Part shown: positions 3,435-48,600 of the stretch, piece after piece
Numbering within the stretch: the stretch's first letter is position 1
How the letters are laid out: each line of letters opens with the position of its first letter
NCBI GenBank assembly: GCA_937872095.1
Contig: CALMNW010000022.1
Span: 52,424 to 116,423 of the forward strand
Reading direction: 5' to 3'
DNA length: 64,000 nt
DNA from: an uncultured Verrucomicrobiota bacterium
GTDB lineage: Bacteria; Verrucomicrobiota; Kiritimatiellia; CAIQIC01; Lenti-01
The notes under the pieces: generated by a model
Database searches by the model: none
What the model was told of the DNA's origin: nothing
Seen by the model: the letters and a program-made list of their open reading frames with translations, nothing else
Program-made: the position numbers and the translations under genes

Positions 3435-3768
3435 GTTCACGGGCATGAAAACGAACGTCCAACCTTGTCCCCAGGATCTCTCGATCGCGGATCTGGCCCG
3501 AATGGCGAAGGTGCTCAAGCTCCTCGCCCATCCGTACCGCCTCAAAATCGTCGACGTGCTCGAATCGGAGGACTCCGCCCCCGTCCACGCGCTCGTGGAC
3601 CGGCTGGACCTGCCCCAGGCCGTCGTCTCCAACCACCTGAAGAAAATGCTCCGCGCCGGGCTCGTCGAATCCGAACGCCGCGGCAAGGAAGTCTGGTATT
3701 CCCTCGGCGACCGCCGGTCCCTCACCATTTTGAACTGCATGAGAGCCAAAAAAGGAGCCCGTTCATGA
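3433..3768 (+). CDS. ArsR/SmtB-family winged-helix regulator
   Basis: LKLLAHPYRLKIVDVLE...QAVVSNHLKKMLRAGLVESERRGKEVWYSL. Confidence 0.9.
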   Translation: MFTGMKTNVQPCPQDLSIADLARMAKVLKLLAHPYRLKIVDVLESEDSAPVHALVDRLDLPQAVVSNHLKKMLRAGLVESERRGKEVWYSLGDRRSLTILNCMRAKKGARS

Positions 3769-5114
3769 AACAAGCCATCGCCCATTTCTTCGCGGCCGCC
3801 CTGCTGGCCGCGCCCGCCGCGCCAGCCGTCACCCTGGACGACGCCATCCAGGCCGCGCTCGACAACTCCCCCACCCTGCAGGCCGCCGAAAGCCGCATCG
3901 ACTCCGCCGAAGCCATGCTGAGCCAGGCGAAATCCTATTACTATCCGTCCATTGGCCTCTCCGCCACCTACGCCCGCAGCGACAATCCCCCGCAGGCGTT
4001 CATGATGACGCTCAACCAGCGGCAATTGAACATGCAGGATCCCGCGTTCAATCCGAACGAGCCCGACGACGTCGACAACCTGCGCGGCAGCATCGGCGCC
4101 CAGTGGCGGCTGTTCGATCTCCAGCGCGCCGCCGGCAAGAACATGGCCCGCTTCGGCGCCCTGGCCAGCGCGGAAGCCTTCGCCGCCGCCCGCAACCAGC
4201 TCGTGCACGACGTCGTCCGCGGCTTCTACGGCCTCCTGCAGGCCCAGGCCTTCGCCGACGTGCAAGCCCAGGCCGTCAAAAGCATCGAGGAAAGCCTGCG
4301 CATCGCCCGCGAGCGCTTCGACGCCGGCGGCGCCGTCAAGACCGACGTCCTCAATCTCGAAACCCAGCTCGCTCAGGCGAACGAAGACCTCATCAAGGCC
4401 CGCAACGGCGCGCAATTGGCCCTCGCCGCCCTCAACGCCGCCATCGGCTCGGATCTCGTCGCGGCCGACACCGTCGAAGCGCCGGATACCGCCGTTCTCG
4501 ACGCCCCGCCGCCGAAATGCACGGAGGAGCTGGCCTTCGAAAAGCGGCCCGAATTGCGCGCGGCCCGCCTGATGCGCCAGATCAAGGAACAGGACGTGAA
4601 AAAGGCCCAGGGCGGCTATGCCCCCACCGTCAGCGCCTTCGCTTCGCTCGACGAAGACAGCGGGAACGCTTCCGATTTCGAGCAAAGCTACATGGCCGGC
4701 CTGCAGGCGGAAATCAACGTCTTCGACGGCGCCCGCACCCGCGCCGCCGTCCGGGCCGCGAAGGCCGAACTCGCCGCCGCGCGGGCCGACGAAGCCAAAG
4801 CCCGCCTCAACCTGCGCCTCGACCTCCAGCAGGCTTTCCTCGGCGTCCAGGAAGCATGGGAACGCCTCGGCGTCGTCCGCAAGAGCCTCGAAACGGCCCG
4901 GGAAGCCCATCGCATCGTGCAAGAGCAATATCAGCAGGGTGCGGCCGACGTTTCCATTTTGCTGCAGACGCAGGTCGGCGTCACCGCCATGCAGACGCGC
5001 GCCGCCGCCGCCCAGTACGACTACCTGACCGCTCTCTCGAACCTGCAGCGCGCCAAAGGCGAGCTGGCCGAGAGCGCCCAGAAGTCAGAGGTCGGAGGTC
5101 AGAGGTCGAAATGA
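3765..5114 (+). CDS. TolC-family outer membrane efflux protein
   Basis: ATG overlaps end of ArsR gene; TLDDAIQAALDNSPTLQAAESRIDSAEAML coiled-coil architecture. Confidence 0.92.
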   Translation: MKQAIAHFFAAALLAAPAAPAVTLDDAIQAALDNSPTLQAAESRIDSAEAMLSQAKSYYYPSIGLSATYARSDNPPQAFMMTLNQRQLNMQDPAFNPNEPDDVDNLRGSIGAQWRLFDLQRAAGKNMARFGALASAEAFAAARNQLVHDVVRGFYGLLQAQAFADVQAQAVKSIEESLRIARERFDAGGAVKTDVLNLETQLAQANEDLIKARNGAQLALAALNAAIGSDLVAADTVEAPDTAVLDAPPPKCTEELAFEKRPELRAARLMRQIKEQDVKKAQGGYAPTVSAFASLDEDSGNASDFEQSYMAGLQAEINVFDGARTRAAVRAAKAELAAARADEAKARLNLRLDLQQAFLGVQEAWERLGVVRKSLETAREAHRIVQEQYQQGAADVSILLQTQVGVTAMQTRAAAAQYDYLTALSNLQRAKGELAESAQKSEVGGQRSK

Positions 5115-5162
5115 TTCCCGTTTGAACATTGGATATTGAATATTGAACATTGAACATTGACT
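5079..5162. repeat. Heptamer tracts: (CAGAGGT-type) x4 then (ATTGRAY-type) x6
   Basis: CAGAAGT CAGAGGT CGGAGGT CAGAGGT CGAAATG (5079-5113, coding tolC tail) and TTTGAAC ATTGGAT ATTGAAT ATTGAAC ATTGAAC ATTGACT (5121-5162). Confidence 0.9.
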
Positions 5163-18791: not shown

Positions 18792-18896
18792 TTTTTTCCA
18801 TGCTGTGGAAAAAAGTTTTCCACGGTATGGAAAAATCGGCCGCCGTTTTTCCACGGCGTGGAAAATTCACTCGCAATTTTTCCACGACGTGGAAAA
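18792..18896. repeat. Palindrome array A (4 units TTTTCCAnnnnnTGGAAAA)
   Basis: TTTTTTCCATGCTGTGGAAAAAA, TTTTCCACGGTATGGAAAAA, TTTTTCCACGGCGTGGAAAA, TTTTTCCACGACGTGGAAAA. Confidence 0.93.
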
Positions 18897-28378: not shown

Positions 28379-28513
28379 TTTTTACGTAGCGTGGAAACAT
28401 TTTTTCCACGGTGTGGAAAAATCGGGCAACATTTTTACGTAGCGTGGAAAAATCCCGCAAAGTTTTTACGTGCTACGTAAAACTCGCCGAAAGTTTTTAC
28501 GTTCCACGTAAAA
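28379..28513. repeat. Palindrome array B (5 units incl. arm-switched TTTTACGT/ACGTAAAA forms)
   Basis: TTTTTACGTAGCGTGGAAA, TTTTTTCCACGGTGTGGAAAAA, TTTTTACGTAGCGTGGAAAAA, TTTTTACGTGCTACGTAAAA, TTTTTACGTTCCACGTAAAA. Confidence 0.93.
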
Positions 28514-42721: not shown

Positions 42722-42745
42722 TCTCTGATCACGATGGCCTCAACC

Positions 42746-42773
42746 CTGAACTCTGACCTCTGACCTCTGGAAA
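42746..42773. repeat. Heptamer tract CTGAACT CTGACCT CTGACCT CTGGAAA
   Basis: trpE-trpG junction; reverse orientation of CAGAGGT family. Confidence 0.85.
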
Positions 42774-42778
42774 CTCTT

Positions 42779-43384
42779 ATGATCCTGATGATCGACAACT
42801 ACGATTCCTTCACCTACAACCTCGTGCAGTACCTGCGCGAAATGGCCGCCGACGTGCAGGTGTTCCGCAACGACGCGATCGGCGTCGCCGACATCGAGAA
42901 GCTCGCGCCGTCCGCCATCGTGATTTCCCCCGGCCCCGGCCGGCCCGAGGACGCCGGCGTGTCGTGCGACGCGATCCGCGCCTTCGCGGGCAAGATTCCG
43001 CTGCTCGGCGTCTGCCTCGGCCACCAGGCCATGGGCCTCGTCTTCGGCGGCCAGGTCGTTCACGCCAAGAAACTCATGCACGGCAAAGTGTCCGAAGTCG
43101 CCTGCGACGGCCAGGGCATCTTCAAGGGCCTCGACAGCCGGCCCTTCAAGGCCATGCGCTACCATTCCCTCGCCCTCGCGCCGGAATCCATCCCCGACTG
43201 CCTCGCCGTTTCCGCCACCGCCGTCGACGACGGCGAAATCATGGGCATCCGCCACAAGCAACTCGCCGTCGAAGGCATCCAGTTCCACCCCGAATCCATC
43301 ATGACCCCCGTCGGCAAGCGGATTTTGCGGAATTTCCTGAAAAATTCCGAGAGCGCAGAGGTCAGAGGTCCGAAATCGGAATGA
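42779..43384 (+). CDS. trpG: Anthranilate synthase component II (glutamine amidotransferase)
   Basis: [49 protein letters not shown]. Confidence 0.97.
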
Positions 43385-43460
43385 AATGGAGACCCGACGC
43401 CCTCGTCGGGCGCCTTCACTTGAACATTGGATATTGATGATTGGATATTGGATATTCGGA
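43356..43460. repeat. CAGAGGT x2 (trpG tail), hairpin CCCGACG-CCCT-CGTCGGG, and ATTGRAT-type x6 tract
   Basis: CAGAGGT CAGAGGT at 43356-43369; CTTGAAC ATTGGAT ATTGATG ATTGGAT ATTGGAT ATTCGGA at 43419-43460. Confidence 0.88.
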
Positions 43461-44505: not shown

Positions 44506-44549
44506 TCATCCTGTTCATCCTGCTAAATCCTGTTAATCCTGTCTCAAAT
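44506..44549. repeat. Degenerate ATCCTGTTN tandem tract
   Basis: ATCCTGTTC ATCCTGCTAA ATCCTGTTA ATCCTGTCT at trpD-trpC junction. Confidence 0.85.
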
Positions 44550-44552
44550 CCC

Positions 44553-45354: not shown

Positions 45355-45396
45355 TCTCAATGTTTTTTAATTCTTAATTTTTAATTCTTACTTCTT
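45355..45396. repeat. Degenerate TTAATTY heptamer tract
   Basis: TTAATTC TTAATTT TTAATTC TTACTTC at 45367-45394, immediately before trpF ATG. Confidence 0.85.
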
Positions 45397-46068
45397 ATGT
45401 TCCTCTCCCACGTCAAAATCTGCGGCATCACCCGGCGACAGGACGCGGTACTTTGCGCCGAGGCCGGCGCGGGCGCCCTCGGCGCGGTCTTCTATGCGAA
45501 GAGCCCCCGCAACGTCGAACCGGCCGCCGTCCGCAAGCTGTTCGAAGGCCTGGATCCCCGCATCGCCCGCGTCGGCGTTTTTGTCAACGCCTCCGTCGAC
45601 GTCATGGTCCGGACCGCCCGCATCGCCGCGCTCGACACCGTCCAGATGCACGGCGAAGAAACGAAGGAAAAGATCGCCGCCGTCCTCCGCGAAGGCTTCC
45701 ACGTCGTGCAGGCCATCAAGCGCACCGGCCCGGAACTGCTGGCCGCCGCCCGCGCCTTGCCCCCGCAGATCGGCCTGCTCGTCGAATGCGGCCGGGGCGC
45801 CCTGCCCGGCGGCAACGGCATCGCCTGGAACTGGAGCAAAGCCGCGCCCCTTGCCCAGTTCCGCGCCTTCGCCATCGCCGGCGGACTGAATCCCCAGAAC
45901 CTGGCCCTGGTCGCGCGCGACAGCCTCGCCGCGGGTTTCGACGCCAGTTCCGGCGTCGAATCCGCCCCGGGCATCAAGGACGAAGCCGCCGTCCGCGCAT
46001 TCCTCCGCACTGCGAAGGAACTGCCCATGGGCCCCCATCCCTTCTCCTGGAAAGGTACGTCGTCGTGA
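45397..46068 (+). CDS. trpF: Phosphoribosylanthranilate isomerase
   Basis: VKICGITRRQDAVLCAEAGAGALGAVFYAKSPRNV, VQMHGEE, FAIAGGLNPQN, DASSGVESAPGIKD. Confidence 0.96.
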   Translation: MFLSHVKICGITRRQDAVLCAEAGAGALGAVFYAKSPRNVEPAAVRKLFEGLDPRIARVGVFVNASVDVMVRTARIAALDTVQMHGEETKEKIAAVLREGFHVVQAIKRTGPELLAAARALPPQIGLLVECGRGALPGGNGIAWNWSKAAPLAQFRAFAIAGGLNPQNLALVARDSLAAGFDASSGVESAPGIKDEAAVRAFLRTAKELPMGPHPFSWKGTSS

Positions 46069-47135
46069 GCCAGCCCCGCCTTGAAAACGTCAACATCGAG
46101 TCCGTCGCCCCGCTCGCCACCCCGCGCGAGATGAAGGCGGCCATTCCGCTCACCGCGGCCGCCATCGCCACCGTCGCCCAGGGCCGCGAAACCATCGAAC
46201 GCATCCTCGACGGCGAGGATCCGCGCCTGTTCGCCGTCGTCGGGCCCTGCTCCATCCACAATCTCGACGCCGCCGAGGAATACGCCCTCAAGCTCAAAGC
46301 CCTCGCCGACGAAATCGCCGACGCGATCTATCTTGTCATGCGGGTCTATTTCGAAAAACCGCGGTCGGCCCTCGGCTGGAAGGGTCTCATCAACGATCCC
46401 TACATGAACGACACCTTCCACATCGAGGAAGGCATCCGCATGGCCCGCCATTTCCTGTTCCGCGTGGCCGAAATCGGCCTGCCCGCGGGCACGGAGCTCC
46501 TCGACGTCCTCATGCCGCAGTACATCGGCGATCTCGTTTCCTGGAACGTCATCGGCGCGCGCACCGCCGAAGCCCAGACCCACCGCGAGATCGCCAGCGG
46601 CATTTCCACGCCCATCGGCTTCAAGAACGGCACCGACGGTTCCCTCGACGCCGCCATCAACGGCGTGCGCTCCGCCATGGGCCCCCACCACTTCCTCGGC
46701 GTCACCGAAGACGGCCTGCCCGCCGTCTTCAGCACCACGGGCAATTCCTATCCCCACGTCGTGCTCCGCGGCGGCAAGCAGCCCAACTACGACGCCGCCA
46801 GCGTCGCCGCCTGCGAAAAGGCCCTCCGCGACGCCCACCTGCCCCCCAACGTCGTCGTCGATTGCTCCCACGGCAACTCCGGCAAGAAGCCCGAGCGCCA
46901 AGGCCTCGTGCTCCAGGACGTCCTCGCGCAGATCGAAGCCGGCAACCGCTCCATCCGCGGCTTCATGCTCGAAAGCAATCTCGAAGGCGGCAACCAGCCC
47001 ATGCTCGCCGATCCCCGGCAACTCAATCCGCGCTGTTCCGTCACCGACGCCTGCATCGACTGGCCCACCACCGCCGCCCTCCTGCGCGAAGCCCACGCCC
47101 GGCTCGGCAAGCTGAGCCGGCAGAAGTCCAAATGA
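46065..47135 (+). CDS. 3-deoxy-7-phosphoheptulonate synthase (class I, AroG/F/H type; GTG start)
   Basis: [66 protein letters not shown] overlap with trpF. Confidence 0.97.
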
Positions 47136-47157
47136 AAACGCAATTTCCAATCAACCC

Positions 47158-47199
47158 ATTGAACATTGGATATTGGATATTGAATATTGGATATTCGGT
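47158..47199. repeat. ATTGRAY heptamer tract x6
   Basis: ATTGAAC ATTGGAT ATTGGAT ATTGAAT ATTGGAT ATTCGGT at aroF-trpB junction. Confidence 0.9.
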
Positions 47200-47235: not shown

Positions 47236-48465
47236 ATGACAAAGCTCATCGGCCAATACCCCGACGCCACCGGCCACTTCGGTCCCTACGGCGGCCGCTT
47301 CGTCGGCGAAACCCTCATGTCCGCCCTCCTCGACGTCGAGGCCGCCTGGACGTCCGCCAAGAACGACCCCGCGTTCATGGCCGATTTCCGCGCCATGCTG
47401 CGCGACTACGCCGGCCGGCCCACGCCCCTCGACTGCGCCGAACGCCTCTCCGCCCACGTCGGCGGCGCGCGCCTCTGGCTCAAGCGCGAGGATTGCACGC
47501 ACACCGGCGCGCACAAGATCAACAACGTCGTCGGCCAGGGCCTGCTCGCCCGCCGCATGGGCAAGAAACGCGTCATCGCCGAAACCGGCGCCGGCCAGCA
47601 CGGCGTGGCCACCGCGACCATCGCCGCCCGCTTCGGCTTCGACTGCAAGGTCTTCATGGGCGCGGAGGACATCCGCCGCCAGGCGCCCAACGTCCGCCGC
47701 ATGGAACTGCTCGGCGCGCAGGTCGTCCCCGTGACCTCCGGCACCAGCACGCTCAAGGACGCGATGAACGAAGCCCTCCGCTACTGGTCGAGCGCCAGCG
47801 ACGACACGTTCTACGTCATCGGCACCGTCTCCGGCCCGCATCCCTATCCCGAAATGGTCCGCGACTTCCAGCGCGTCCTCGGCGACGAAGCCCGCGCGCA
47901 GTTCCTCGAAAAATGCGGCCAGCTGCCCGACCTGCTCGTCGCCTGCGTCGGCGGCGGCTCGAACGCCATGGGCCTGTTCTATCCCTTCCTCGACGATCCC
48001 TGCGAGATGATCGGCGCCGAAGCCGCCGGCGACGGCCTCGACACGCCGCGCCACGCGGCCTCGCTTTGCGGCGGCTCGCCCGGCGAACTCCACGGCGCCC
48101 TGACCTATCTCCTCCAGAACGACGAAGGCCAAATCCACGAGGCCTGGTCCATTTCCGCCGGCCTCGACTATCCCGGCGTCGGCCCCGAACACGCCCTGCT
48201 CCACGATTTGAAACGCGTCCGCTACGAAGGCGTCACGGACCAGGAAGCCGTCGCCGCCTTCCAGGCGCTTTGCCAGTTCGAAGGCATCATCCCCGCCCTC
48301 GAAAGCTCCCACGCCCTCGCCGCCGCCTTGCGCGAAGCGAAAAAGCGCCCCGCGACGCAAAACGTCCTCGTCAACCTCTCCGGCCGCGGCGACAAGGACC
48401 TCGACCACGTGACCCGGTACCTGAAAGAAGTCGGAGGTCAGAGGTCGGAGGTCGGGAAAGAATGA
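47236..48465 (+). CDS. trpB: Tryptophan synthase beta chain
   Basis: [64 protein letters not shown]. Confidence 0.98.
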
Positions 48466-48600
48466 TCCCCCGATCCACCAATCGCGGCCCGTCTCCCTCC
48501 GTCCGGTTTTCCACGCTATGGAAAACTTTTTTCCACGGTGTGGAAAAATTTCAATCCCCTCCCCCCTGAACTCCGACCTCTGAACTCTGACCTCTATAAA
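48425..48600. repeat. trpB-trpA junction composite: CAGAGGT tract, palindrome array C, inverted CAGAGGT tract
   Basis: AAGAAGT CGGAGGT CAGAGGT CGGAGGT (48425-48452); TTTTCCACGCTATGGAAAA (48507-48525) and TTTTTTCCACGGTGTGGAAAAA (48527-48548); CTGAACT CCGACCT CTGAACT CTGACCT (48566-48593). Confidence 0.9.

Follow-up and report, generated by a model that had tools for sequence, protein, structure and literature searches.

How did a TolC-like outer membrane efflux protein, TrpG, TrpB, and DAHP synthase, all encoded in the window (the whole analyzed stretch of 64,000 nucleotides from an uncultured Verrucomicrobiota bacterium), come to end in similar peptides? The initial annotation had proposed a repeat element that is placed preferentially at gene 3′ ends or replaces them.

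Heptamer-coded C-termini

Direct reading of the window sequence revealed four CAGAGGT-type heptamers at the end of the TolC gene, followed by CGAAATGA, which holds the stop codon; sequence and translation of this tract in the TolC frame are exactly as first annotated (Table 1). Three to four tandem heptamers of this type plus a stop close each of the TolC, TrpG, and TrpB genes, and the TrpG and TrpB C-termini derive from the same kind of tract as that of TolC. The tail attributed to four proteins corresponds to full arrays in these three, but to only two degenerate heptamer units at the DAHP synthase end. The AAATGA/GAATGA stop context, listed initially as a further shared feature, is present but not an independent one because it is supplied by the altered last heptamer unit (CAGAATG or CGAAATG, plus A).

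Table 1 Positions of genes, tails, and heptamer arrays in the window
Feature	Position	Strand	Description
TolC-like outer membrane efflux protein gene	3765..5114	+	OEP family, PF02321; frame ending in the tail
TolC tail	5079..5114	+	CAGAAGT.CAGAGGT.CGGAGGT.CAGAGGT.CGAAATGA with stop; predicted QKSEVGGQRSK*
Second heptamer family	5122..5160	+	TTGAACATTGGATATTG..., stop-bearing strand; spacer between TolC gene and next gene
CAGAGGT array	42738..42769	-	CTGACCT on plus strand, stop-bearing; 9 nt before trpG start
TrpG tail	43356..43384	+	CAGAGGT.CAGAGGT.CCGAAAT.CGGAATGA; AEVRGPKSE*
ATTGGAT-family array	43420..43456	+	spacer downstream of trpG
DAHP synthase end	47121..47135	+	CAGAAGTCCAAATGA, RQKSK*; two-unit relic (plausible)
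ATTGAAT/ATTGGAT-family array	47157..47195	+	before trpB
TrpB tail	48426..48465	+	heptamer-coded end; also 5′ arm of predicted long-range hairpin
Inverted CAGAGGT-type array	48563..48595	-	10 nt before trpA start; 3′ arm of TrpB-tail hairpin

A search with a three-unit CAGAGGT-type pattern (≤2 mismatches) gave 51 matches in the 3.33 Mb draft genome versus none with the reversed-pattern control. These counts and the 7-base periodicity in three tails speak against coincidence or ordinary charged C-termini, to which the two-unit tail of DAHP synthase would conform; the chance that this accounts for the tails is negligible, and for TolC, TrpG, and TrpB coincidence was excluded.

Alignment with orthologues identifies the tails as repeat-derived extensions. 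The TolC orthologue from the same genus in G001 ends ...KGELAD* without a tail, while those in G002 and G003 carry the tails QNPEFKIQDSE*, from CAGAATT-like units, and NSEARGQRSE*, respectively. TrpB ends ...KEHGAP* in G001 and G006, without a tail, and has heptamer tails in G003, G004, G009, and G012. Outside its own family, TrpG mostly ends ...NFLAL* or similar, and tails of similar length but with different units were found in ten family members. Orthologues of congeners have either no tail or one built of other heptamers (CAGAATT, CAGGGTT). The suggested replacement of gene 3′ ends applies slightly at TrpB, where about five residues are affected; otherwise the tails extend the proteins. 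For DAHP synthase, a full tail (RQNSEARIQDSE) was present in G009 from the same family and RQNPK in the congener G006, a tail built of TTCAACG-type units was observed in a more distant genome (L115), and other orthologues had none. Given RQNPK* in the congener and the full tail in G009, the DAHP synthase end is plausibly a relic rather than an array.

Other repeats were also observed in the window. Short dyads of the type TTTTCCACG(C/G)TATGGAAAA, of about 22 to 31 bases and arranged in tandem, occur at 18794–18896, 28413–28471, and 48507–48551; many relatives have them downstream of trpB and trpG too, and the TrpB frame of G003 continues through one of them (...RFGFPRHGK*). Between trp genes lies a 9-base repeat of the ATCCTGTTA type (44508–44551), and related ACAGGATTAACAGGATT repeats come after DAHP synthase in G003 and G004. 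A heptamer array of TTAATTCTTAATTTTTAATTC (45364–45397) runs right up to the start codon of the gene that follows.

Reading frames, abundance, and placement of the arrays

Three-frame translation of CAGAGGT arrays yields QRSEVRG, RGQRSEV, and EVRGQRS, i.e., one and the same cyclic heptapeptide in all frames, because 7 is coprime with 3 and three units make seven codons. The opposite strand reads TSDL*PL, with a TGA stop in every frame because the 7-base period passes all three frames within 21 bases. The distinction between one open and one stop-bearing strand holds for CAGAGGT, ATTGAAT, CAGAATT, and CAGGGTT; it is absent from the stop-free units CAGGGGA and CCGAAGT. Any open-strand array lying over a gene end gives the same tail, and in-frame targeting is therefore unneeded. 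The tail shared by unrelated proteins, which had been taken as a sign of targeting or of a tag, is a similarity forced by period 7.

This also weighs against a functional peptide tag (a degron, a targeting tail, or an interaction tail) selected on several proteins. Residues are indeed shared between the tails, and TrpG tails of similar length are kept in ten relatives. However, within the genus, orthologues have no tail or a different peptide, internal loops contain this peptide as well, and the tailed proteins are unrelated in function and location (outer membrane TolC, cytosolic TrpB). Peptide-level conservation of the tails across orthologues, by which a functional C-terminal tag would be recognized, was not found, and a test of codon phase versus heptamer phase in the few available TrpG tails did not separate selection from its absence (p = 0.35). 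A selected tag is considered very improbable.

The placement of the arrays was evaluated in 459 kb of own-genome sequence (the window plus two large contigs, picked regardless of array position). Among periods of 4 to 15, period 7, together with its multiple 14, was the sole short period concentrated in spacers. In this sample, 20 of 20 spacer arrays were located in spacers between co-directional genes, a class that makes up 70% of the spacer bases. With genes predicted by a dicodon-based caller that had been trained on the own genome, the 81 arrays from own-genome stretches selected partly by pattern comprised 68 intergenic arrays, 10 inside genes, and 3 tails. The arrays represent a class of heptamer tandem repeats with exact or near-exact 7-base units, many loci per genome, and predominantly intergenic location; the ATTGAAT/ATTGGAT family had 179 matches in the genome and none in the controls.

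Inspection of nearly all genome matches to CAGAGGT together with their surroundings showed that, among them, solely TolC, TrpG, and TrpB have tails of at least three units; one further array touched a stop codon (C96). The preferential placement at gene 3′ ends put forward initially does not hold as a general rule, as CAGAGGT arrays lie mostly in spacers between co-directional genes, with three tails and at least three internal arrays: for this family, gene 3′ ends are one tolerated place among several and not a preferred site. CAGAGGT-type arrays also fall within called genes in antisense orientation (C76, 27724–27758, and C26, 15517–15550, both G000).

The CAGAGGT-type pattern was detected in 41 of the 56 genomes of relatives searched, and a narrower version of it in 63 of 289 genomes from across the phylum. 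TrpB relatives, at up to 94% identity, come from metagenome genomes that bear the labels Kiritimatiellae, Lentisphaerae, or Verrucomicrobia, and the bacterium is accordingly placed in Kiritimatiellae. A literature search on spacer repeats of Kiritimatiellae retrieved nothing. In G016 and G006 (L247, L253, L255, and L239), spacers of several hundred bases consist largely of mixed heptamer arrays, with CAGGGGA, GGACGGA, CTGTCCC, CCGAGGT, and ATTGGAT families side by side. Further heptamer families within the order, of the TGTTCGA, CGAACAT, ACGAGAC, and GACCAAT types, were observed in G017, with arrays at L210 2220–2262, L215 4060–4178, and L221 8343–8393. The G017 families suggest that it is the period that is conserved, not the sequence.

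In-frame inserts, pairing, and orientation

At least three arrays lie in frame inside conserved genes, namely those of a GlcD-like FAD oxidase (insert DQRSEVGGQRSG), a BPD_transp_1 ABC permease (insert KKGAEVRGQRSEK), and RseP (Peptidase_M50); some arrays called inside genes in G017 may result from gene-calling errors and were left out. The GlcD-like loop is built of CAGAGGT units in G000, CAGGAGA/CAGGGGA units in G006, CAGAGGT followed by ACCACC-type units in G002, and CAGAGGC-like units in G004, and it is short or unrelated in G001 and in more distant relatives. The RseP loop contains an inverted pair in each of three genomes, of CCGAAGT-type units in G000, CAGGGGA/CAGGAGA units in G002, and CAGGGTT-type units in G004, whereas no heptamer pair was found in G001. 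The site is kept while the unit changes, with the two arms changing together. Such site persistence despite unit turnover, seen at a few loci, is the most interesting part of the system.

Inverted pairs at homologous sites with units differing per species, in RseP in frame in three congeners, and in-frame inserts in several unrelated genes are also what would be expected from a MITE-like or RAYT/REP-like mobile palindrome, whose arms would be the ends of a transposable hairpin inserting into spacers and tolerated coding sites. No fixed element body or length was recognized, though, and most arrays are single or of mixed families, which renders a mobile palindrome decidedly unlikely.

The inverted arms could alternatively act at the RNA level, by forming an mRNA hairpin around an operon spacer and thereby controlling processing, stability, or translational coupling between neighboring genes; the tail would then be just the stretch of the 5′ arm that falls within the upstream gene. 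For the TrpB tail paired with the array before trpA, a structure with z = −6.0 was predicted, and for the RseP array, a hairpin with z = −3.1. Of the 81 own-genome arrays, 15 had a strong inverted partner at a distance of up to 200 nt, versus 1 with a direct partner. The preference of the arrays for co-directional spacers would suit such a function, as would the stop-bearing strand being in sense in 20 of 25 own-genome arrays that adjoin start codons. In contrast, the TolC spacer (z = +1.8) and the TrpG spacer (z = −0.1) were predicted to fold no better than shuffled sequences, and the matching of arms at one locus versus those of other loci reached only p = 0.07 in the own genome and was absent in G006 and G016. 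Many arrays have no partner at all, G016 favors direct pairs, opposite to the own genome, and the orientation bias at start codons did not recur in G006, G016, or G017. An RNA-level function as the origin of the tails is therefore regarded as rather unlikely; the predicted structures make an RNA role possible for some arrays, and it is unneeded to explain the tails.

A separate rule of outward orientation, with the open strand at the left and the stop-bearing strand at the right spacer edge, was rejected: it gave p = 0.0065 in the own genome and failed in G006, G016, and G017.

Origin of the tails and comparison with known systems

The tails are probably the coding overlap of a repeat of otherwise noncoding type, i.e., a tolerated by-product and not a designed tag. 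Short tandem heptamer arrays of several families populate the genus, mainly in spacers between co-directional genes. Where a CAGAGGT-type array covers a stop codon and its open strand is in sense, the reading frame runs on and adds about 10 to 13 residues of cyclic QRSEVRG until a stop is met, often in an altered last unit (CAGAATG plus A). By the same logic, an array entering a tolerant internal loop gives an in-frame peptide insert, and both tails and loop inserts would persist since they are harmless, their neutrality being the assumption made here. For the spread and rewriting of the arrays, our preferred guess is replication slippage combined with template switching between inverted arms. 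The tail position is kept in ten TrpG family members, which is longer than might be expected of a purely neutral relic and counts against this reading. A more far-reaching reading is that sites such as the trpG 3′ end and the RseP surface loop keep an array or inverted pair over genus or family divergence while the unit is exchanged en bloc in the two arms, so that a hairpin-templated, site-persistent process would diversify proteins via lineage-specific loops and tails; this we consider unlikely.

A noncoding repeat whose period is not a multiple of 3 can supply one and the same peptide whatever the gene and the frame, and such repeats can readily give rise to C-terminal extensions and loop inserts. 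Annotators are thus warned not to take shared tails for functional tags. Different heptamers at the same site in sister species provide a natural series for how arrays spread and change, for which no explanatory study was found in the literature.

Seven-base tandem units scattered in spacers are also known from heterocystous cyanobacteria as STRR (short tandemly repeated repetitive) heptamers, from which the present arrays differ in phylum and units. REP/BIME and other bacterial intergenic palindromes occupy operon spacers near gene 3′ ends and can form mRNA hairpins; unlike these, the arrays described here have 7-base units and no fixed REP consensus.

The TAACTGA heptamer direct repeats of marine Beggiatoaceae, Cyanobacteria, and Bacteroidetes are mainly intergenic, with stops in all frames of one strand and the other encoding LSVISYQ; some overlap stop codons or adjoin protein ends, e.g., that of MurG, and insertions were proposed to succeed mainly at protein peripheries (MacGregor 2015, PMC4679880). 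Together with the Rickettsia palindromic elements, they are the nearest precedent. The present arrays share with them the tandem heptamer build, the mainly intergenic location, the coding asymmetry, and the overlap of stops. They differ in the unit (double TAACTGA units were absent from own-genome stretches totaling about 0.87 Mb with overlaps counted), in the many coexisting families with units varying between congeners at one site, and in the inverted arms and internal in-frame inserts in conserved genes. A further trait by which TAACTGA repeats are recognized, the stop-bearing strand in sense directly before start codons, was seen in 20 of 25 own-genome arrays next to starts and did not recur in the three relatives.

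Rickettsia palindromic elements are in-frame palindromic repeats of about 150 bp in protein genes, with a conserved peptide-coding sequence (reviewed in PMC10969869). The inserts in the GlcD-like protein and RseP, the latter palindromic, are similar in being in-frame insertions relative to orthologues and at tolerated sites. However, the arms are mostly 20 to 60 bp long, the unit is variable, and the arrays are often single and mostly in spacers; there is no conserved body of about 100 to 150 bp, and the arrays are therefore not assigned to these elements. Overall, the feature is real; its core logic is ordinary and has published precedent, and the diversity and site persistence of the arrays are unusual.
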